The position numbers and the translations under genes were made by a program. DNA of 64,000 nucleotides from Chitinophaga pinensis (GTDB lineage Bacteria; Bacteroidota; Bacteroidia; Chitinophagales; Chitinophagaceae). Location of the stretch: the NCBI RefSeq assembly GCF_007896845.1, contig NZ_VOHS01000003.1, positions 248,001 to 312,000 of the forward strand, given 5' to 3'. Shown here piece by piece: positions 48,179 to 62,815 of the stretch (positions within the stretch are counted from its first letter, which is position 1; the number at the start of each line of letters is the position of its first letter). The notes under the pieces are model-generated. The model saw only the letters and a list, made by a program, of their open reading frames with translations, made no database searches and was not told the DNA's origin.

Positions 48179-49201
48179 ATGATAAGATCACTTATTTGCT
48201 TTTTGCTACTATTCGCGTCTGCTGTACATGGACAGCAGACGTTTAAAAATCCGGTATTGCCGGGTGGACCTGATCCGTGGTGCGTATATAAGGACGGATA
48301 TTATTATTATATGCATACGATGGGGAACCGCCTGGAACTGTGGAAGACCAAAAACATCGCTCAGCTGAAAGATGCGCCACATAAAACGATCTGGACGCCT
48401 CCGGCGACCGGTCCCTACTCCAAAGATATCTGGGCCCCTGAGATCCATTATCTGAAGGGGAAGTGGTATGTATATTTTGCTGCCGATGGTGGTGATAATC
48501 AGGACCATCGCATTTATGCGCTGGAAAATAGTTCTCCTGATCCTATGCAGGGTACCTGGGTGTTTAAAGGAAAAGTAGCTGATCCGGAAGATAAGTGGGC
48601 TATTGATGCAAGCGTATTTGAACATCACGGAAAATTATATATGATCTGGTCAGGATGGGAAGGTAATAAGAATGGCCGGCAGGATATTTATATCGCCGCT
48701 ATGAAAGACCCACTGACGATACAGGGGAAAAGGGTAAAGATATCAACACCCCAATATCCATGGGAAACCAAAGGAGATCTGGGAGATCCTGATTTGAAAC
48801 ATATAGACGTTAACGAAGGGCCGCAAATGTTGCAACACAAAGGGTTACTTTTTATCATCTATTCAGGATCTGCTTGCTGGACAGACGATTACGCATTAGG
48901 GATGTTAGTAGCTAGTGAAAAGCAAGATCTGTTGAACCCGGCTTCATGGCAAAAGCATGACCAGCCGGTGTTTAAGCAATCCGCTGAAAATAAGGTATAT
49001 GCACCCGGACACAACTCATTCTTTACATCTCCTGACGGCAAAGAATACTGGATCTTATACCACGCCAACGACCATCCGGGAGATGGTTGCGGTGGAAAGC
49101 GATCCCCCAGAATACAGCAATTTAGCTGGAATAAACTGGGCTGGCCGGTATTCGGAACACCGTTAAAAACAGATACTTTGTTAAAAATCCCCCGTTCCTG
49201 A
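48179..49201 (+). CDS. Glycoside hydrolase family 43 enzyme
   Basis: The 340-residue secreted enzyme (signal MIRSLICFLLLFASAVHG) folds as a GH43 five-bladed propeller. The three expected acidic residues are visible: base Asp32 in PGGPDPWCVYKDG, the pKa modulator Asp143 in WAIDASVF and the acid Glu213 in DVNEGPQML. Such enzymes remove arabinofuranosyl or xylosyl units from plant cell-wall glycans. It is the only enzyme in this locus, which is therefore a small one aimed at arabinose- or xylose-decorated material. It is the last gene of the operon and its stop codon lies in the loop of the terminator. Confidence 0.9.
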   Translation: MIRSLICFLLLFASAVHGQQTFKNPVLPGGPDPWCVYKDGYYYYMHTMGNRLELWKTKNIAQLKDAPHKTIWTPPATGPYSKDIWAPEIHYLKGKWYVYFAADGGDNQDHRIYALENSSPDPMQGTWVFKGKVADPEDKWAIDASVFEHHGKLYMIWSGWEGNKNGRQDIYIAAMKDPLTIQGKRVKISTPQYPWETKGDLGDPDLKHIDVNEGPQMLQHKGLLFIIYSGSACWTDDYALGMLVASEKQDLLNPASWQKHDQPVFKQSAENKVYAPGHNSFFTSPDGKEYWILYHANDHPGDGCGGKRSPRIQQFSWNKLGWPVFGTPLKTDTLLKIPRS

Positions 49202-49213
49202 CGGGGGATTTTT
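49183..49213 (+). terminator. Terminator of the polysaccharide-utilisation operon
   Basis: A perfect 13-bp stem (49183-49195 with 49201-49213) has its loop on the GH43 stop codon. Five C and five G at the core and a T5 run at the end make it strong. Confidence 0.92.
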
Positions 49214-49653
49214 CTTTATGGTAGCGGATTTGCAGAGAAATTAAACGATCGTGGTATTGTCAGAGTCGCAAAGCTGTGTTAACTTTTGTTAACGAAATTA
49301 TACTTATGTCAGGTAATTAATAGGACTGCCGTATATTTTCCACCTGTTTTATGTAGATTTAGATACAACAACAGTATAACAATTAGTGTAGTACTTATTC
49401 AGCTTTATCATCATGCCGTCAATCGTTTTACATTACGTTATCATTGCGTGCATTACAGTTATGTTTGTATTAGTGAACAGATTCTACGGTCACAAGACGA
49501 GCGTTAACTGGAAGGAGAACAATGAACAACTTTAAGCGCCACGCATAAGGTAACCCCACCTACATACTTTGTCAGATGCCTTTGTACCAGATGGTCAGGA
49601 TAGTTTGCCACGTACTATCTTATTCAGGTACAGGGATTTCCATGTTTATTTTG
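49214..49653. other. Gene-free stretch upstream of the redox operon
   Basis: About 440 nt with no convincing gene. It contains GTTAAC twice with a TTTT spacer (49278-49293) and an 8-codon frame MNNFKRHA at 49522-49548, which may be chance. Confidence 0.5.
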
Positions 49654-49680
49654 AATAGTCTATAAAATTTATAGACTATT
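49654..49680. promoter_or_regulatory. 27-nt palindromic operator A
   Basis: Arms AATAGTCTATAAA and TTTATAGACTATT are perfect inverted copies around one central base. The core AGTCTA-N9-TAGACT has the same spacing as the element at 62086-62112. It ends one base before the -33 box of the promoter below, a place where a repressor or activator could bind. Confidence 0.8.
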
Positions 49681-49681
49681 A

Positions 49682-49713
49682 TTTGGAAAATAAAATCAGC
49701 CATTCTATCTTTG
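49682..49713 (+). promoter_or_regulatory. Promoter of the redox/TonB operon
   Basis: TTTG (49682-49685) and TATCTTTG (49706-49713) are 20 nt apart, close to the Bacteroidetes consensus. Transcription would begin near 49720, giving a leader of about 230 nt before the TlpA-like gene. Confidence 0.8.
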
Positions 49714-49781
49714 TTATCACCACCCTAATTAAGCCACCATTAATTAGTTGATTTTTTAAAAATTAACTAACACTTTTGAAC

Positions 49782-49832
49782 ATGAACAACTTCCTTCGTT
49801 CTTCCGGCTGTATGCCTTGTTGTTGTCGCTAA
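49782..49832 (+). CDS. Cysteine-rich leader peptide (16 residues)
   Basis: The ORF encodes MNNFLRSSGCMPCCCR with Cys at positions 10, 13, 14 and 15, three of them in consecutive TGT codons. It lies about 60 nt into the predicted leader of the redox operon and ends 4 nt before a terminator-like hairpin. Runs of codons for one amino acid directly before a hairpin are the hallmark of attenuator peptides, and polycysteine leader ORFs before sulfur genes are known in actinobacteria. Here the peptide would sense charged tRNA-Cys, or act through its thiols. Too short for a homology claim. Confidence 0.6.
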   Translation: MNNFLRSSGCMPCCCR

Positions 49833-49835
49833 TCT

Positions 49836-49865
49836 GCCTTTTGTCCAAAGGCGCTCTCTTTTTCC
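49836..49865 (+). promoter_or_regulatory. Attenuator-like hairpin after the Cys-rich ORF
   Basis: GCCTTT (49836-49841) pairs with AAAGGC (49847-49852) around TGTCC, followed by a pyrimidine run CTCTCTTTTTCC. AAGGC (49848-49852) can alternatively pair with GCCTT inside the leader ORF (49814-49818), so mutually exclusive structures are possible. The direction of control cannot be predicted. Confidence 0.5.
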
Positions 49866-49953
49866 ATCGTCATATACTGACTACAAATGACCGATAAACG
49901 GAAAGAGATAGCTATACCCTGAACTATCAACCACTCAAATCAAATCTACTCTC

Positions 49954-51237
49954 ATGAACACAATTGCCCGTATCGGAGTAAAAGGCCTGTTGGCCACTGT
50001 ACTATTCGGCAGTACTGTATTTGCAGCTGAGAAAAAGCCCCTGTTTTTAAAAGAAGGTGTATGGCGTGGTGTTTTTACTGTGAATGAAGCCAATGTGCCA
50101 TTCAACTTCGAATTCAAAGGAAAAGACCCCGAACATGCCGTGTTCTCATTGATAAATGGTACACGCCGTGATGAATTTAAAGTAAAGCGTATCGGAGATG
50201 ATTCGCTGTTTATAAAAATGAATACCTATGATGCTGCGCTGTTTGCGAAGATCGAAACAGATGGCCGTATCACTGGTGAATACAGAAGTCTGGTACCTAA
50301 TTTCCGGGGGAACGCCCTGCCTTTTGTGGCGGAAGCCGGTAAGAAATACCGCTTTGTAGAACCGGGAAAAGATGTCAAACCCGCAGTGAATCTGTCAGGT
50401 AAATGGGAACTACAGATCTATAGCAAAGAACCTACTCCTAACAGAATCGGATTGCTGAAGCAGGATGGTAACCGTCTCACAGGCGTAATCATGTCCGTCG
50501 TAGGTGATAGCCGTGAACTCGAAGGCACTGTACAGGGCAATGAATTTGAACTGTCAGGTTTCACCGGACCAAGCCCGATATACATCAAAGGTCATATCAA
50601 TGATGACCAGTCCTTTACAGGAGAACTAAGTCTCGGTATCTATAACAATGTGAAGTTTGACGGTAATAAAAATGCCAATGCCGAACTCCCTGATCCTTAT
50701 AAACTGACATACCTGAAAGAAGGATATAAAAAGCTGGATTTCTCCTTACCGGATCTGAATGGTAAACAGGTATCACTGAGTGATGCCAAATACAAGGGGA
50801 AAGTAGTGATCGTTGAAATCATTGGCACATGGTGTCCTAACTGTACTGATCAGACAGCATTTCTCGCTCCCTGGTTCAAAAAGAACAAAGACCGTGGTGT
50901 AGAGGCTATCGCCATCGGTTTTGAGCAGAAAGATGATTTAGAATATGCACGGTACACATTAGGTAAATTAAAAGATAAATACGGTATTGAATATGATATT
51001 CTTTTTGGTGGCATTGCTGATAAGAAAGTGGCTTCGGAAAAACTTCCGGCACTCAACCGTATGATGGCATTCCCTACAACTATTATTATAGATCGTAATG
51101 GTGATGTGCGTCAGATACATACGGGTTACACCGGTGAGATTACCGGTAATTATTTCAACGACTATGTAAAGAAGTGGAACGACGATCTGGATGCGCTGAT
51201 CGCAGAACCTGTCCGTCAGGACGTGGCCATCCGCTAA
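49954..51237 (+). CDS. TlpA-like thioredoxin-fold protein with N-terminal beta domains
   Basis: The 427-residue secreted protein (signal MNTIARIGVKGLLATVLFGSTVFA) has about 240 residues of beta-rich sequence with GVWRGVFTVNEANVPFNFEF and a second similar block (LSGKWELQIYSKEPTPNRIGLLKQDGNRLTGVI), then a TlpA/AhpC-type thioredoxin domain with the redox motif WCPNC (Cys294, Cys297) and the cis-proline region AFPTTIIIDRNG. It should reduce disulfides in the periplasm or on c-type cytochrome substrates. It is the first gene after the Cys-rich leader, and is followed 121 nt later by YceI. A 3-nt-loop hairpin (51247-51265) lies just after its stop. Confidence 0.88.
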   Translation: MNTIARIGVKGLLATVLFGSTVFAAEKKPLFLKEGVWRGVFTVNEANVPFNFEFKGKDPEHAVFSLINGTRRDEFKVKRIGDDSLFIKMNTYDAALFAKIETDGRITGEYRSLVPNFRGNALPFVAEAGKKYRFVEPGKDVKPAVNLSGKWELQIYSKEPTPNRIGLLKQDGNRLTGVIMSVVGDSRELEGTVQGNEFELSGFTGPSPIYIKGHINDDQSFTGELSLGIYNNVKFDGNKNANAELPDPYKLTYLKEGYKKLDFSLPDLNGKQVSLSDAKYKGKVVIVEIIGTWCPNCTDQTAFLAPWFKKNKDRGVEAIAIGFEQKDDLEYARYTLGKLKDKYGIEYDILFGGIADKKVASEKLPALNRMMAFPTTIIIDRNGDVRQIHTGYTGEITGNYFNDYVKKWNDDLDALIAEPVRQDVAIR

Positions 51238-51358
51238 ACTTATTGTTATCATCCGCAGGATGATATCCTATGTCTTCTCGTCTATACATGTTGTTCTCTG
51301 TTGTAATACCTGTGGGGTCGTATGGCTCGACCCTGCAGGTTGCTAAAAACAAACTCCC

Positions 51359-52018
51359 ATGAAAATTTTTCAACACGCCGCATCTTTTGCTTCAATAGGC
51401 GTGATCGCTGTGATCACTGCTTTCACTGTACAGGTTCAAAATACAGCGCCTATACCTGCAACTGTCAAAACCGTTACTGCCGCTAATAAAGTCACAGCTT
51501 TTCAGGTAGACAGTAAAAATAGCAAGCTATTATGGACGGCCCGTAAGGTGACCGGCACACATACCGGTACTATCAATATCAGCAGTGGTACGCTGAAGGT
51601 GGAAAACAATGCGCTCCAAAGCGGCAGTTTTAAACTCGATACCCGCAGCATTGCTGTAACTGACATAAAAGATGCTGGTGGTAATGCGAAGCTTACCGGC
51701 CATCTGAAGAGTGACGATTTCTTTGCAGTAGAGAAATATCCTGCAGCTGATTTTGCAATCACCGGTATTAAGCCACATGGTAACAATCAGTATGATCTGC
51801 TTGGCAAACTGACTATTAAAGGTATTACCAACGACGTCAGCTTCCCTGCCACTGTGGTTATCGAAAAAGGCAAACTGACGGCCAATGCCAAGGTGAAAGT
51901 AGACAGAACGAAATATGATATCAAATTCCGTTCAGCAAACTACTTTGAAAACCTGGGCGATAAGGCTATCTACGATGATTTCGATCTGGATATAACACTG
52001 CTCGCTAATGCTCAGTAA
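51359..52018 (+). CDS. YceI-family periplasmic lipid-binding protein
   Basis: The 219-residue protein has an N-terminal signal or anchor (FASIGVIAVITAFTVQ) and a YceI beta-barrel: FQVDSKNSKLLWTARKVTGTHTGTINISSGTLKVENN, LTGHLKSDDFFAVEKYPAADFAITGIKPHG, LLGKLTIKGITNDVSFPATV and KVDRTKYDIKFRSANYFENLGDKAIYDDFDLDI. YceI proteins carry isoprenoids such as quinone-like molecules in the periplasm. The stop overlaps the start of the peroxidase gene by one base (TAATG), so translation is coupled, and YceI is often found beside cytochromes. Confidence 0.9.
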   Translation: MKIFQHAASFASIGVIAVITAFTVQVQNTAPIPATVKTVTAANKVTAFQVDSKNSKLLWTARKVTGTHTGTINISSGTLKVENNALQSGSFKLDTRSIAVTDIKDAGGNAKLTGHLKSDDFFAVEKYPAADFAITGIKPHGNNQYDLLGKLTIKGITNDVSFPATVVIEKGKLTANAKVKVDRTKYDIKFRSANYFENLGDKAIYDDFDLDITLLANAQ

Positions 52019-52953
52019 TGAAAAAGTGGCTCATCATAGCTTTGTTAGTGACCGCATGTACTCTGCTGGCTTTTCATTCAGAAGAACCGCTGACGCGGGC
52101 AACCCTCGGAGAAAAATTGTTTTTCGATCCGGTATTATCGCTGGACAGAACTATCAGCTGTGCTTCCTGCCATAGGCCACAGTTTGCGTTTGCCGATACC
52201 TCAACCTTCAGTAAAGGCATTCATGACAAACTCACCAAACGAAATACCCCTGCGCTTACCAACCAAAGTGGCCGGCCCAGTTTCTTCTGGGATGGACGGG
52301 CCGCCACATTGGAGGAACAGGCAAAACAACCGATTATCTCTCCGGACGAAATGGGCCTGCCGATAGAAGAAGCCGTGAGGCGCCTCAATGCAGACAGTAA
52401 CTATACACAGGCATTCAGAAAGATTTTTAACAGTGCGCCTACTGAAAAAAATCTGCTACAGGCACTGGCAGCCTTTGAACGTACACTGGAAACAGCCAAC
52501 AGTCCTTACGACAGATACATCAACGGTGATGATCATGCAATCTCTGCCGCAGCTGCACGGGGACGCCTGTTGTTCATAGGAAAAGCCAATTGTAACAACT
52601 GCCATTCAGGTGAAGACTTCACAGCAGACCGCTTCAAAAATATAGGACTATACAATGGCACTACATTAAAAGATGCAGGTCGTTTTGATATCACACATGA
52701 CAGTGCGCAGTTAGGATTCTTCAAAGTACCCAGTCTGCGGAATGTTGCCGTTACAGCGCCCTATATGCACAACGGTATGTTCAGAACACTACGTGAAGTT
52801 ATTGTATACTACAACACACCAGATGCATTGATCCATGACGGCATAAAAAGGGACTTATCGTTAAATACACCATTAAACTTAACTGACACAGAAATAGACG
52901 AACTCGAAGCTTTTCTTAAAACACTTACAGACGACCGTTTTATCAACCAATAA
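52018..52953 (+). CDS. Di-haem cytochrome c peroxidase (CCP/MauG family)
   Basis: The 311-residue secreted or membrane-anchored protein carries two CXXCH haem c motifs: CASCH at residues 48-52 and CNNCH at 192-196. The order LGEKLFFDPVLSLDRTISCASCHRPQFAFAD, FFWDGRAATLEEQAKQPI, LAAFERTLET and FKVPSLRNVAVTAPYMHNGMFRTLREVIVYYN is characteristic of bacterial di-haem peroxidases. It would reduce hydrogen peroxide or oxidise another periplasmic substrate. Translation is coupled to yceI. Electrons could come from the TlpA-like or quinone-carrying partners encoded beside it. Confidence 0.92.
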   Translation: MKKWLIIALLVTACTLLAFHSEEPLTRATLGEKLFFDPVLSLDRTISCASCHRPQFAFADTSTFSKGIHDKLTKRNTPALTNQSGRPSFFWDGRAATLEEQAKQPIISPDEMGLPIEEAVRRLNADSNYTQAFRKIFNSAPTEKNLLQALAAFERTLETANSPYDRYINGDDHAISAAAARGRLLFIGKANCNNCHSGEDFTADRFKNIGLYNGTTLKDAGRFDITHDSAQLGFFKVPSLRNVAVTAPYMHNGMFRTLREVIVYYNTPDALIHDGIKRDLSLNTPLNLTDTEIDELEAFLKTLTDDRFINQ

Positions 52954-52995
52954 TCAAATCCCGCCACAGGCGGACAGTCTCTTCAACACTATAAC

Positions 52996-55548
52996 ATGAG
53001 AATCTTTACTATCATTATTCTACTGCTGTTGACAGGCTACTACGCGCCGGCACAGTCGCAGGAAAGGGACTCCCTAACCCTGCGGCGGCTGGGTGAAGTA
53101 CAGATAGTAGGTTCCCGCAGTGTGACGCGTACACGTCTGAATGCGCCTGTACCAGTAGATGTTATTGACCTCAGATCTTTACAGGAAAACGCCCCACAGA
53201 CCAGTCTGACGCAGTTGCTGCAATATATCTCCCCTTCATTTCACTCTGTGAATGGCAGTAACGCCGGCGATGCAGGATCTGCACTCAATCTCGCACAATT
53301 AAAAGGATTGGGTGTAGACCAGCTGCTGGTCCTTGTGAATGGTAAAAGAAGACATAAAAGCTCCAACGTTAACTGGGGTGGCCTTGGTAACGGTGCTACC
53401 GGTTACGATCTGAATGCTATTCCAGCCGGCGCAATAGAACGTATAGAAATACTCAGAGATGGTGCTGCCGCGCAATATGGCTCAGATGCAATTGCCGGTG
53501 TGATCAATGTGGTGCTTAAAAAATCAACCGATGATATTACACTCAGCACTACCGCCAGTGTACGCCGGAGAGGCGATGGATTAACCACACGCACCAGTGC
53601 AGGCTATGGTTTTAAGCTGGGTGATAATGGCGGCTATCTTCGTCTGACCGCAGAATTTGCCACACAGGCTATCGCACTACCTGCCGGTAAAACAGATGCA
53701 GGATTGTACAATGGTCCTATTTACGGTGGTGGTGCCAACACCCGGGGCTATGATGCGATCTATACAAAAGAAATAGATGACGCCATATTGGCCAGCCGTG
53801 GTATTGACCGGCATTACTTCGATCAGCGTGGTGGCGGCGCTAATAAGGCAAAAGATGCACTGTTGTCATTCAACGCCGCTATTCCCCTCAAAGAAGGCGT
53901 AGAGCTATATACATTCGGTGGTATCAGTCATCGTAACTCTGAATTTACAGCGGTATACCGCCTGCCGGGATGGACAGAAAGAAATAACGCCTTCCTCTAC
54001 CCTGATGGCTTTTTGCCCGAAATGGACAATACCATCACAGATAAATCGATCGCTATCGGCGTAAAAGGAAAGATAGGACAGTGGACAACCGATCTTTCAA
54101 ACGTATATGGGAAGAATGATTTCGGGAACGTCATTGACAACTCATTGAATGCAAGCTACGGACTCAAAAGTCCGACCACTTTCGATGCCGGCCGGTATAA
54201 CGCATCCCAGAATACCGCCGGTCTTGATATCTCCCGGTATTTTGAACATGCTTTGCATGGTGTCAATGTGGCTTTTGGCGGACAGTATCGCGTGGAGACC
54301 TACCAGATCATTGCCGGAGAAGAAGCTTCTTATGCGAAGGCTGACCTGCGGACGATCTACAATATAGATACAACCGCAGCCGGTGTGCCTTATCAGTCTG
54401 CCGCAGGACTGATTGCCTTAAACAGCCTCTCCCCCGGTTCCCAGATCCATGCAGGTTTTCGTCCCGCAAATGAAGTAAATGTCAACCGTGCTGTAACCGC
54501 CGGTTATGTAGATATTGAGGCCAACATCACCCGTCGGTGGTTGTTGTCTGCCGCCGTAAGAGCAGAGCATTTCTCTGACTTCGGTAATGTTACTACCTGG
54601 AAAATAGCCAGTCGTTATAGCCTTGCTAAATGGCTGGCTTTCCGGGGAGCCTATAACACCGGTTTCCGTGCCCCTGATCTTGCACAGTTCTATTACACAG
54701 AAACGTCTACCACTTTTCAGCAGGGACGTGCAGTAGATCTGGTAACAGCTTCCAATAAAAGCGCAGCGGCAAGAGCATTGGGTATCCCTTCGCTGACGCC
54801 TGAGCGTTCAAGAGGATTCAGTGCCGGCATCACTTCAGAACCTGCACCAAGAGCGGAACTCAGCATAGACGCCTATCATGTGGAAATAGATAACCGCGTG
54901 GGTAACACAGGTAATTTCTCTGCACTGGATACGAATCTGCCGGAGGATGTAAGAAATCTGTTACTGCAAACAGGCACCACACAGGCAAAATTCTTCTACA
55001 ATGCTTTCAGTACCCGCACCAAAGGAATTGAGTTCACCGGTAGTTATAAAGTGCTGCTGAATAAAGCTTCCTTATCATTTCTTGCAGGTGCGAATTTCTC
55101 AAAGAATGAAGTCACCGGTGTGAATACACCCAAAGGGCTTGAAGCCTATCGTTATGTCATCTTCAGCGAAGCAGAAAGAGCCCGGGTAACCACAAATATT
55201 CCGCAGCAGAAAGTCACCCTGCAGGGTGTTTATAATTCACGCAAATGGAACCTGTTATTGCGTACCGTTTATTTCGGCACTGTCACTACGGCTACAGCGT
55301 TGAATGCTACCTTTCCCCGCCCGGATTATTTCTTCCAGAAACTGCCTGCTATATGGGTAACAGATATTTCGGCCGGTTATCATATTACACCACAGTTGCT
55401 GGCAAGCATTGGCGTCAACAATGCATTTAATGCATTGGGAGATTACACCGCGCCGGAGATTGCCGGACTGCGTAACCCTACGGTAGTAGGTATTCAGAAT
55501 GGCAGCGCCGGTATTCAGCCTTTTGCCAGACTACTGGCTAAATTTTAA
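52996..55548 (+). CDS. TonB-dependent outer-membrane receptor (non-SusC type)
   Basis: The 850-residue receptor has a short signal (MRIFTIIILLLLTGYYAPAQS), a plug domain (GEVQIVGSRSVTRTRLNAPVPVDVIDLRSLQENAPQTSLTQLLQYISPSF, then LVLVNGKRRHKSSNVNWGGLGNGATGYDLNAIPAGAIERIEILRDGAAAQYGSDAIAGVINVVLKK) and a 22-strand barrel with NTGFRAPDLAQFYYTETSTTFQQG. It has no carboxypeptidase-regulatory or STN domain and no SusD partner, unlike the other two receptors here. It probably imports a small chelate, cofactor or organosulfur compound. Operon position supports a redox-linked ligand. Confidence 0.9.
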   Translation: MRIFTIIILLLLTGYYAPAQSQERDSLTLRRLGEVQIVGSRSVTRTRLNAPVPVDVIDLRSLQENAPQTSLTQLLQYISPSFHSVNGSNAGDAGSALNLAQLKGLGVDQLLVLVNGKRRHKSSNVNWGGLGNGATGYDLNAIPAGAIERIEILRDGAAAQYGSDAIAGVINVVLKKSTDDITLSTTASVRRRGDGLTTRTSAGYGFKLGDNGGYLRLTAEFATQAIALPAGKTDAGLYNGPIYGGGANTRGYDAIYTKEIDDAILASRGIDRHYFDQRGGGANKAKDALLSFNAAIPLKEGVELYTFGGISHRNSEFTAVYRLPGWTERNNAFLYPDGFLPEMDNTITDKSIAIGVKGKIGQWTTDLSNVYGKNDFGNVIDNSLNASYGLKSPTTFDAGRYNASQNTAGLDISRYFEHALHGVNVAFGGQYRVETYQIIAGEEASYAKADLRTIYNIDTTAAGVPYQSAAGLIALNSLSPGSQIHAGFRPANEVNVNRAVTAGYVDIEANITRRWLLSAAVRAEHFSDFGNVTTWKIASRYSLAKWLAFRGAYNTGFRAPDLAQFYYTETSTTFQQGRAVDLVTASNKSAAARALGIPSLTPERSRGFSAGITSEPAPRAELSIDAYHVEIDNRVGNTGNFSALDTNLPEDVRNLLLQTGTTQAKFFYNAFSTRTKGIEFTGSYKVLLNKASLSFLAGANFSKNEVTGVNTPKGLEAYRYVIFSEAERARVTTNIPQQKVTLQGVYNSRKWNLLLRTVYFGTVTTATALNATFPRPDYFFQKLPAIWVTDISAGYHITPQLLASIGVNNAFNALGDYTAPEIAGLRNPTVVGIQNGSAGIQPFARLLAKF

Positions 55549-55579
55549 ACGCACCTGATGGTGCATTAAAAGATGCGAC

Positions 55580-56392
55580 ATGAAAAAGAAGCCTTATCTC
55601 CATCATACGATCATGTTGTTGTTGTTTGTCTTACTGACAGCCTGCAACAAGGCAGACTATCTTGATGTAAATGCGGGGGAAAGACCACCGCTCAATGCGC
55701 AGATCAGTTTCGTCAATGCGCGCCCGGCAGATGTGCCCTTACAGTTCTGGATATTTACGACGCAGGTAACAACAACGGCGGTTGGCATCAATCAGGCATC
55801 GCCTTATTTACCTGCTTTATTCGGTAACGTACAGATCAATTTCACAGAAGGTACCGGCACCAGTTATAAGTTATCCCGTCAGTTTGGTAATCAGGCTACT
55901 TTCTCTGCGAATGGTGGCCCTAATGGTCCTATTGCCGGTTATTATCACACGGTGTTTGCTGCGGGCGCCAAAACAGATATTACCAAAGATACCCTCATAC
56001 TATTCTATGACAACCCGCAGGCACCCGCTGCAGGTAAAGCTAAACTACGCTTCGTGCATCTCGCGCCGTCCATCGCTGCCGTACAGGTGTCATTACAGCA
56101 GGAAGGACATGAACGCCTGCTGTTTGACACGGTGGATTACGGCCGTGCCGGCGGATCGGTATTAACAGGCGAGGGCCTGAATGCATGGTCGCTGAGCCCT
56201 TTTGTAGAAGTGCCAGCGGGTGCTTCCTCATTGGCGATCAGTACCGTAGCAGATCGTCAGCCACTGGTAATCGATAAAGAAGCCTTTTCCCATCTTTTGC
56301 TGGAAGCAGGTAAAAGCTATACCGTCTTCCTGCATGGCGTACCGGGCAAAGCAGCGACAGGAGGCGCTATCATCACTCATTTTGAGAACTAA
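55580..56392 (+). CDS. DUF4397 family lipoprotein
   Basis: The 270-residue protein has a lipoprotein signal (IMLLLFVLLTAC, modified Cys22). It contains a DUF4397 beta-sandwich: AQISFVNARPADVPLQFWIFTTQV near the start, LRFVHLAPSIAAVQVSLQQ, and SPFVEVPAGASSLAIST followed by LEAGKSYTVFLHG. The family is secreted and of unknown function. It follows the TonB receptor by 31 nt, so it may be a surface accessory protein of that receptor. Confidence 0.75.
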   Translation: MKKKPYLHHTIMLLLFVLLTACNKADYLDVNAGERPPLNAQISFVNARPADVPLQFWIFTTQVTTTAVGINQASPYLPALFGNVQINFTEGTGTSYKLSRQFGNQATFSANGGPNGPIAGYYHTVFAAGAKTDITKDTLILFYDNPQAPAAGKAKLRFVHLAPSIAAVQVSLQQEGHERLLFDTVDYGRAGGSVLTGEGLNAWSLSPFVEVPAGASSLAISTVADRQPLVIDKEAFSHLLLEAGKSYTVFLHGVPGKAATGGAIITHFEN

Positions 56393-62085: not shown

Positions 62086-62112
62086 AAAAGTCTACACAAA
62101 TAGTAGACTTTT
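62086..62112. promoter_or_regulatory. 27-nt palindromic operator B
   Basis: Arms AAAAGTCTAC and GTAGACTTTT are perfect inverted copies around 7 nt. The core AGTCTA-N9-TAGACT matches the element at 49654-49680 in sequence and spacing. It covers the place of the -33 box of the downstream promoter. Confidence 0.8.
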
Positions 62113-62239: not shown

Positions 62240-62815
62240 ATGTTTAAGCTACGAATGCCTTATTGGGCCTGCGTTGCAGGTATTGCTATGATTTCATGTG
62301 AACGCCGTGTCAACACCGCGCCAACACATTTCGGCTATGGTCGCCCTGCTACAAAACAGGAGATCGCAGCAAAAGCAATAGCCATTCGTCCCGATGGGAA
62401 AGGATTACCCGCAGGTAGCGGTACTGTGCAGCATGGTGCTGTTATCTATGCAGGCAAGTGCGCATCCTGTCATGGCGTTACCGGCACAGAAGGACCGTTC
62501 AATGTACTGGTCGCACCGGATACCGCAGACGCTGTTCCTTTTGATCGTGCTCCGCAACGTATAAAAGCCATTGGGAACTATTGGCCGTATGCTACGACGG
62601 TATTCGATTACGTGCGTCGTGCCATGCCTTTTAATGCACCGGGCTCTTTATCAGATAATGAAGTATATAGCCTGACAGCATATCTGCTGTATGCTAACAA
62701 ACTGATAGACAGTTCTACTGTCATGAATGCGAAAACCTTGCCCGGCGTCATAATGCCGGCCCGGAAATACTATGTCACAGACAACAGGAACGGAGGGGAC
62801 GGGCCATATGAGTAA
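62240..62815 (+). CDS. Mono-haem cytochrome c lipoprotein
   Basis: The 191-residue protein has a probable lipoprotein signal (CVAGIAMISC, Cys20) and one haem c site, CASCH at residues 74-78, in GAVIYAGKCASCHGVTGTEGPFN. The later MPFNAPGSLSDNEVYSLTAYLLYANKLID segment supplies the likely methionine ligand and the conserved cytochrome c C-terminal helix. It should accept electrons from the SoxC-like dehydrogenase encoded 43 nt downstream, as SoxD- or SorB-type cytochromes do. The gene is first in an operon controlled from the 62086 operator region. Confidence 0.88.
   Translation: MFKLRMPYWACVAGIAMISCERRVNTAPTHFGYGRPATKQEIAAKAIAIRPDGKGLPAGSGTVQHGAVIYAGKCASCHGVTGTEGPFNVLVAPDTADAVPFDRAPQRIKAIGNYWPYATTVFDYVRRAMPFNAPGSLSDNEVYSLTAYLLYANKLIDSSTVMNAKTLPGVIMPARKYYVTDNRNGGDGPYE

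Follow-up and report, generated by a model that had tools for sequence, protein, structure and literature searches.

Polycysteine leader ORFs of actinobacteria have reportedly been tested by Canestrari (2020). In the accessible parts of the literature, such ORFs are predicted for actinobacterial cys operons (PMC1262725; Cys-run leaders also in PMC9094748) and described for the mycobacterial cysA2 and nirA leaders (PMC4633059). For the actinobacterial leaders, no clear terminator is noted behind the ORF, and Rho was proposed (PMC1262725). Cys codons are also part of the uORFC-8-2 motif of cysS in Rhodobacterales (PMC8632094, main features). In Bacteroidota, leader-peptide candidates, short ORFs of 5' UTRs proposed to be attenuation leaders, are mentioned for amino-acid operons of Flavobacterium psychrophilum (PMC9723704) and Bacteroides thetaiotaomicron (PMC7366714). 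Supplements aside, the accessible text of the last two reports describes no cysteine leader and no stacking with a SAM riboswitch. Among the literature matches listed, which were main texts mostly outside subscription journals, neither a Bacteroidota Cys leader nor a stack of one with a SAM riboswitch appears. The first-pass annotation of the DNA studied here had likened one of its ORFs to the known polycysteine leaders of mycobacteria, in agreement with what is accessible of PMC4633059. It had also called the device apparently undescribed, which holds for Bacteroidota among the matches listed but not for Cys leaders as such, given those published for actinobacteria and Rhodobacterales cysS.

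The window is a 64,000-nt stretch of Chitinophaga pinensis DNA. In the region of interest, a GH43 gene is followed by an inverted repeat, a promoter, a 5' hairpin, the leader ORF, a short hairpin, a pyrimidine tract and a TlpA/ResA-like gene, in that order. The features are as follows:

49654-49680, no strand: candidate operator, a 27-nt inverted repeat with perfect 13-nt arms and the core AGTCTAT-N7-ATAGACT, just upstream of the promoter
49682-49713, + strand: putative promoter read from the sequence, TTTG (49682-49685) and TATCTTTG (49706-49713)
49725-49747, + strand: 5'-UTR hairpin CTAATTAA-GCCACCA-TTAATTAG with CCACCA in the loop, found in Sphingobacteriaceae leaders too
49782-49832, + strand: leader ORF MNNFLRSSGCMPCCCR, 16 codons plus TAA, from the sequence and comparison with relatives
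49835-49853, + strand: short hairpin, 2 nt past the stop codon, with the stem TGCCTTT/AAAGGCG, followed by CTCTCTTTTTCC up to 49865
49854-49915, + strand: second predicted hairpin (minimum-free-energy fold), with the pyrimidine tract (49854-49865) on one side of the pairing and GGAAAGAG, near 49900, on the other
49954-51237, + strand: TlpA/ResA-like thiol-disulfide protein (AhpC-TSA, PF00578, 1.2e-16; PRK03147, 4.6e-18, under its cut-off)
51359-52018, + strand: YceI, after the TlpA-like gene
52018-52953, + strand: MauG/MbnH-like di-haem protein, after YceI
52996-55548, + strand: TonB receptor, after the MauG/MbnH-like gene
55580-56392, + strand: DUF4397 protein, after the TonB receptor gene
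62089-62109, no strand: the operator core again, as a second and exact copy (AGTCTAC-N7-GTAGACT), ahead of the gene at 62240 for a c-type cytochrome

Cys codons occupy positions 10, 13, 14 and 15 of the leader ORF. The last three form the TGT-TGT-TGT run (49818-49826) near the end of the ORF, already pointed out in the annotation, and the extra Cys codon lies at 49809. The device had been placed 230 nt ahead of the TlpA-like gene; the actual distances to its ATG (49954) are 121 nt from the stop codon and 172 nt from the start codon. The genes from tlpA-like to DUF4397 (49954-56392) would be co-transcribed, judging by their spacing. They form a redox and uptake set, tied to cysteine only indirectly and not plainly devoted to cysteine synthesis. 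Among the matches listed, the closest orthologue of the TlpA-like protein is that of Chitinophaga sp. YR627, with 98% identity. We consider it likely that the ORF of the window is a cysteine-codon leader peptide controlling this sulfur/redox gene set.

The productive route to the leaders of relatives was to search by downstream gene rather than by peptide. A scan for upstream short ORFs (ATG start, 8-45 codons, CC within the last 16) identified CC-bearing ORFs at 53 of 69 TlpA-orthologue loci and CCC at 39 of them. At other gene starts of these loci, it gave CC in 7/141 cases and CCC in 1/141, keeping in mind that the upstream stretches were longer for TlpA (mean 626 vs 345 nt) and that the 69 loci include close relatives. 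The lone CCC case, in locus L037, resembles another leader, and on the antisense strand upstream of TlpA the scan yielded 1/69. The bodies of the leaders differ between genera (MKNLKFCCCMCM, MKTLKLQNSCCCK, MKLRRQPQPNSLINFSGRYNCCCR, MKKLKYLPTHQLSSSAIMRCCCCAYCAFWF, MNAKLFACNARCCTCCC), and what persists is the Cys codons ahead of the stop. On the sequence side, the refutation test set out in the annotation came out in favour of a Cys-codon leader.

In Chitinophaga, a close TlpA orthologue (>600 bits) is encoded in 34 of 79 genomes. By eye, 21 of the 30 loci fetched, the window included, have a Cys-bearing leader, some with a single terminal Cys; at least three Cys in the last 12 codons were found in 15/30 loci, against 0/30 on the antisense strand. 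Of the nine loci devoid of a convincing Cys leader, eight have no Cys ORF listed and one, L210, has an uncounted ORF with one terminal Cys. Because these nine loci still keep the operator, the leader appears dispensable for the operon. The core SSGCMP-x-CC is retained in 10/10 fetched genomes of the window's clade. However, nucleotides vary too little in that clade to separate peptide from RNA constraint, and the conservation argument therefore rests on the wider comparison. Cys13 is replaced by Tyr in the neighbour L182 and by Ser in some others, so that this position is not essential. Relatives with one Cys only (ASRC-stop, SFRC-stop) would have weak sensors. Locus L016 keeps the leader and continues behind it with a completely different sequence.

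We also searched 294 genomes of the family for CxPCCCx-stop, following the annotation, which had proposed to look for such strings. The exact peptide is not widespread: 36 places in 32 genomes were obtained, compared with 3 for the pattern in reverse, and 29 of the 30 loci inspected are not leaders of the window type, none being alike by eye. Many of these matches are part of longer frames that have no ATG close by, and several seem to represent one conserved gene. In the window's own genome, CCCR-stop has 8 matches against 2 for the control; besides the window's own, one of them (L009) also gives a 16-codon ATG frame, but it was rejected as a second leader because visual inspection placed it within another gene. 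Some Mucilaginibacter loci harbour a second or third Cys-rich short ORF further upstream (e.g. L055:1990-2049 and 2306-2386; L045:988-1062), one such ORF lying behind its own SAM-I riboswitch.

Rfam searches identified SAM-I riboswitches next to the TlpA leader in 6 of 12 scanned loci, from Mucilaginibacter, Pedobacter and Siphonobacter, and in 1 of 4 scanned Chitinophaga loci (L192). The leader of the window has no RF00162 match above the gathering score, and a relaxed threshold returned weak Rfam matches only (E 1 or worse). In a riboswitch-first survey (SAM-I in 7 genomes, 35 matches, 30 loci fetched), a CMCCC-type leader was present 3' of the riboswitch in 5/6 metY units, and leaders with at least three Cys near the end in 0/4 metH and 0/5 cysteine-desulfurase units; gene names were assigned by eye from N-termini, metY being backed for L145 by TIGR01326 (6.4e-201).

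Surveys starting from metY, which codes for O-acetylhomoserine sulfhydrylase, used a strict criterion of at least three Cys in the last 12 codons. Across the phylum (118 genomes, 30 loci fetched), such ORFs were present in 10/30 loci on the sense strand and 0/30 on the antisense strand, and SAM-I matched in 18 of 20 loci scanned. Cys/Met-rich ORFs are located some 300-380 nt before metY in L164, L166, L172, L179 and L180; in the first two, both scanned with Rfam, the ORF is upstream of the riboswitch, not downstream. In the family of genome G395 (81 genomes, 30 loci, 28 of them new), the proportions were 20/28 sense and 2/28 antisense, with an inside-gene control at 0/28 sense and 2/28 antisense, and SAM-I was found in 15 of 16 scanned loci. 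We drew 19 leaders from these 28 loci, omitting nine whose Cys run was weak or not clear. Among the 19, the last four codons are Cys in 18, 17, 15 and 15 cases, and at any single position between codons 10 and 29, counted back from the stop, Cys occurs in no more than 2/19. Their Cys codons are split 53:49 between TGC and TGT, which points to selection on codons; the free third position argues against an RNA-level motif, which would fix it. Many bodies of metY leaders are unrelated even within one family, while their position and Cys run persist. The core idea of the annotation, a cysteine leader ORF, is upheld by this conservation before both TlpA and metY genes, and on these comparisons the notion of a Cys-codon leader is well supported.

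Elsewhere in the window's genome, two candidate leaders precede TonB-receptor genes. One, ...SGCCPGIFYSSCSCM, lies behind an operator-like palindrome with 1 mismatch (L118/L241), and the other, MDTSLRCC, behind CACCACC (L242). Both were picked by eye among the 12 of 74 gene starts, taken from the window and five chosen stretches, that have a short upstream ORF with two Cys near its end, the window's leader being one of the 12. They represent weaker evidence than the family-level comparisons. Neither of the two SAM-I riboswitches of this genome is associated with a CC-bearing leader, and one has a weak CAC-bearing ORF.

Upstream of the leader, the promoter elements announced at 49682-49713 were found in place. 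We take TTTG / TATCTTTG to be a candidate Bacteroidota-type promoter, going by the consensus of that phylum. Its TCTATCTTTG is conserved in 9/9 aligned Chitinophaga leaders, and transcription would start at about 49720. The operator core is present upstream of the TlpA gene in 30/30 fetched Chitinophaga loci, with a pattern composed after some of those loci had been seen. The idea of a shared operator, also put forward in the annotation, fares well in this respect and with the exact copy at 62089, but the third site, before the Cys leader and TonB gene, has 1 mismatch; at that stringency the pattern is no commoner in the genome than its control, with 9 sites each. The 62089-62109 copy precedes a promoter-like stretch, and the 5' UTR of the cytochrome gene (62240) has a more stable predicted fold than most of its shuffles (z -2.39) and no Rfam match. 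An Rrf2-family gene is found directly upstream of cysH-cysD-cysN in the same genome (L245:11123-12653), and its product is a candidate operator-binding regulator. An operator-like palindrome before cysH has 2 mismatches and is not taken, alone, as exceeding chance.

The 5'-UTR hairpin is single-copy in its genome, as searched to 3 mismatches. In Sphingobacteriaceae (L030-L078; e.g. L034:2472-2580, L032:2586-2700), an element of ~100 nt with inverted-repeat ends lies upstream of the TlpA promoter. It contains ATGGTGG, the exact reverse complement of the hairpin's CCACCAT (window 49734-49740), a string constant among the elements because they were retrieved by it. The element has a 7-bp consensus stem with little covariation and no Rfam match at gathering score. 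Its covariance model gave 4 strong matches in 60 sources (L129, L133, L137, L138), all of them from genomes that had contributed TlpA loci to the search. Pairing of ATGGTGG with CCACCAT in cis, or a trans-acting RNA, is possible. Chitinophaga loci without Cys leader (L017, L018, L191, L193-L195 and others) keep the operator and have several CCACC repeats in the TlpA 5' UTR. A 40-residue hydrophobic frame, MPSIVLHYVIIACITVMFVLVNRFYGHKTSVNWKENNEQL, at 49413-49535 of the window is near-identical in 7 Chitinophaga loci, with a diverged end in L016.

As in amino-acid attenuators, a short ORF with a codon run is present, its Cys run conserved and its translation predicted; the intrinsic terminator that such systems have between leader and gene is not conserved. 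The annotation had proposed that the hairpin at 49835-49853 and its U-run terminate transcription unless GCCTT of the ORF (49814-49818) pairs with AAGGC. This classical scheme is the alternative that survives best, and we nevertheless find it unlikely. The predicted fold of 49716-49990 is more stable than that of shuffles (z -2.55, 3/200), and a terminator scan of the 142-nt tail from the second half of the ORF gave a match in the window and in 0/60 shuffles. Across the 800-nt region 49200-50000, however, the one terminator found compares with 0.5 +/- 0.7 in shuffles, i.e. chance level. Terminator-like matches were detected in 3/9 Chitinophaga (the window, Chitinophaga sp. YR627, L010, and C. 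rhizophila, L068) and 2/14 Mucilaginibacter leaders, against 0/4 and 0/3 other TlpA leaders and 0/8 metY leaders. The stem GCCTT/AAGGC is retained in close Chitinophaga (90% of cells) and never covaries; the U-run is mostly lost, and L016 has a leader without a hairpin of this type, by eye. The alternative pairing exists in the window and is kept in 87.5% of cells, but one of its five pairs is a C-A mismatch in 5 of 8 aligned Chitinophaga leaders, the window being among the 8, and these leaders provide no covariation support. Furthermore, the switch would run in the wrong direction, since stalling at 49818-49826 would leave the antiterminator strand (49814-49818) hidden under the ribosome. The terminator hairpin is thus locally unusual in the window, but neither it nor the switch is supported as a general device, and an intrinsic terminator in that role is unlikely.

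RNA structures of another kind are found behind the leader. A 7-bp hairpin located between leader and gene in 14 loci of Mucilaginibacter has 22 compensatory cells against 7.0 +/- 2.1 in shuffled alignments; four of five measures of covariation gave 0/500 shuffles and the fifth 37/500, the structure being derived from the same alignment and such scores being inflated by kinship. An RNA structure distinct from an intrinsic terminator is therefore well supported by covariation in these relatives. In Chitinophaga, the upper stem of the 49854-49915 hairpin has one compensatory pair (GTCAT/ATGAC to GTCAG/CTGAC) among 8 sequences. A GGA-N4..10-TATGYC motif occurs ~50-95 nt before the TlpA start, after the leader hairpin, in L034, L036, L029, L069 and others. 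Downstream of the leader, 19 sequences have C/G ratios of 1.0-5.0, values that are compatible with Rho and are not evidence for it.

Less probable still is a metal- or redox-sensing arrest peptide. For CruR/CutF-type uORFs, arrest by a Cys-rich nascent tail has been proposed; here, a nascent CxxCCC or CCCMCM tail would bind copper or become oxidized and arrest the ribosome. Cys/Met-rich tails such as CCCMCM are consistent with this scenario, and the TlpA, di-haem MauG/MbnH-like and TonB genes would suit metal or redox biology. Nevertheless, the richest leaders precede metY and come with SAM-I riboswitches, which points to sulfur amino acids, and the variable number and spacing of Cys residues does not define a fixed metal motif. 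An even lower probability attaches to the peptide itself being active, metallothionein-like or modified, the ORF then not being a cis regulator. The C-terminal ...FWF of 14 Mucilaginibacter leaders and the SSGCMP core in Chitinophaga reveal constraint beyond Cys, on peptide or RNA, but bodies are unrelated across genera and among many metY leaders of one family, with only the position and the Cys run persisting. Lastly, a chance ORF in a structured UTR, to which one-CC short ORFs at 7/141 other gene starts and two-Cys ORFs at 12/74 own-genome starts lend some credit, is refuted at the family level by the TlpA counts, the strict metY counts and the terminal Cys positions of metY leaders; from these comparisons, MNNFLRSSGCMPCCCR is a genuine leader, of a widespread kind, rather than a chance string.

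Through the cysteine-codon leader, the cell can probably detect when cysteine runs short. At low levels of charged tRNA-Cys, a ribosome translating the leader would stall on its Cys codons, and the stalled ribosome would alter the fold or the protein occupancy of the 120-160 nt spacer between leader and gene, turning expression on. With ample Cys, the ribosome would complete the leader and expression would be damped, for which Rho-dependent termination, translation control or RNA decay are candidates.

On a broader scale, we see even chances that Bacteroidota have a phylum-wide, previously undescribed stack in one 5' UTR, combining a palindromic operator, perhaps bound by Rrf2, a SAM-I riboswitch and a Cys (often Cys and Met) leader in either order, with modules independently gained or lost and no intrinsic terminator behind the leader. 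The metY and thiol/TonB genes would then jointly read SAM and charged tRNA-Cys. If true, cysteine would join the amino acids sensed via leader translation in a major phylum. Bacteroidota are a phylum with unusual translation initiation. The stack would constitute a natural RNA gate with two inputs, SAM and Cys, in many variants, and a SAM-I riboswitch with Cys codons ahead of a nearby stop could serve as a marker to place unknown TlpA/TonB operons in sulfur physiology.

Compared with the known systems, the SAM-I riboswitch (RF00162) adjoins TlpA and metY leaders in relatives and is absent from the leader of the window. Like uORFC-8-2, as far as the accessible text on that motif goes, the Bacteroidota leaders have Cys codons in a short upstream ORF and stems downstream. 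The motif has two tandem Cys codons, usually at positions 14-15 and within a stem, and an intrinsic terminator with a U-run, whereas in the Bacteroidota leaders the stop is typically preceded by two to five Cys codons and a terminator is not conserved. According to the accessible parts of the reports on them, mycobacterial polycysteine leaders are leaderless, a form that the promoter-like elements of the window speak against; these lie ~70-100 nt upstream of the ATG, with a presumed start site and a conserved 5' hairpin between. With the actinobacterial polycysteine leaders, as described in the same parts, those of Bacteroidota share a short ORF before sulfur genes, a Cys run near the stop and the lack of a clear terminator, the link to a sulfur operon being direct for metY and by association for TlpA. 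They differ from them by their unrelated peptides, by the genes that they precede (metY, TlpA and TonB), by their stacking with SAM-I riboswitches and by their occurrence in another phylum.
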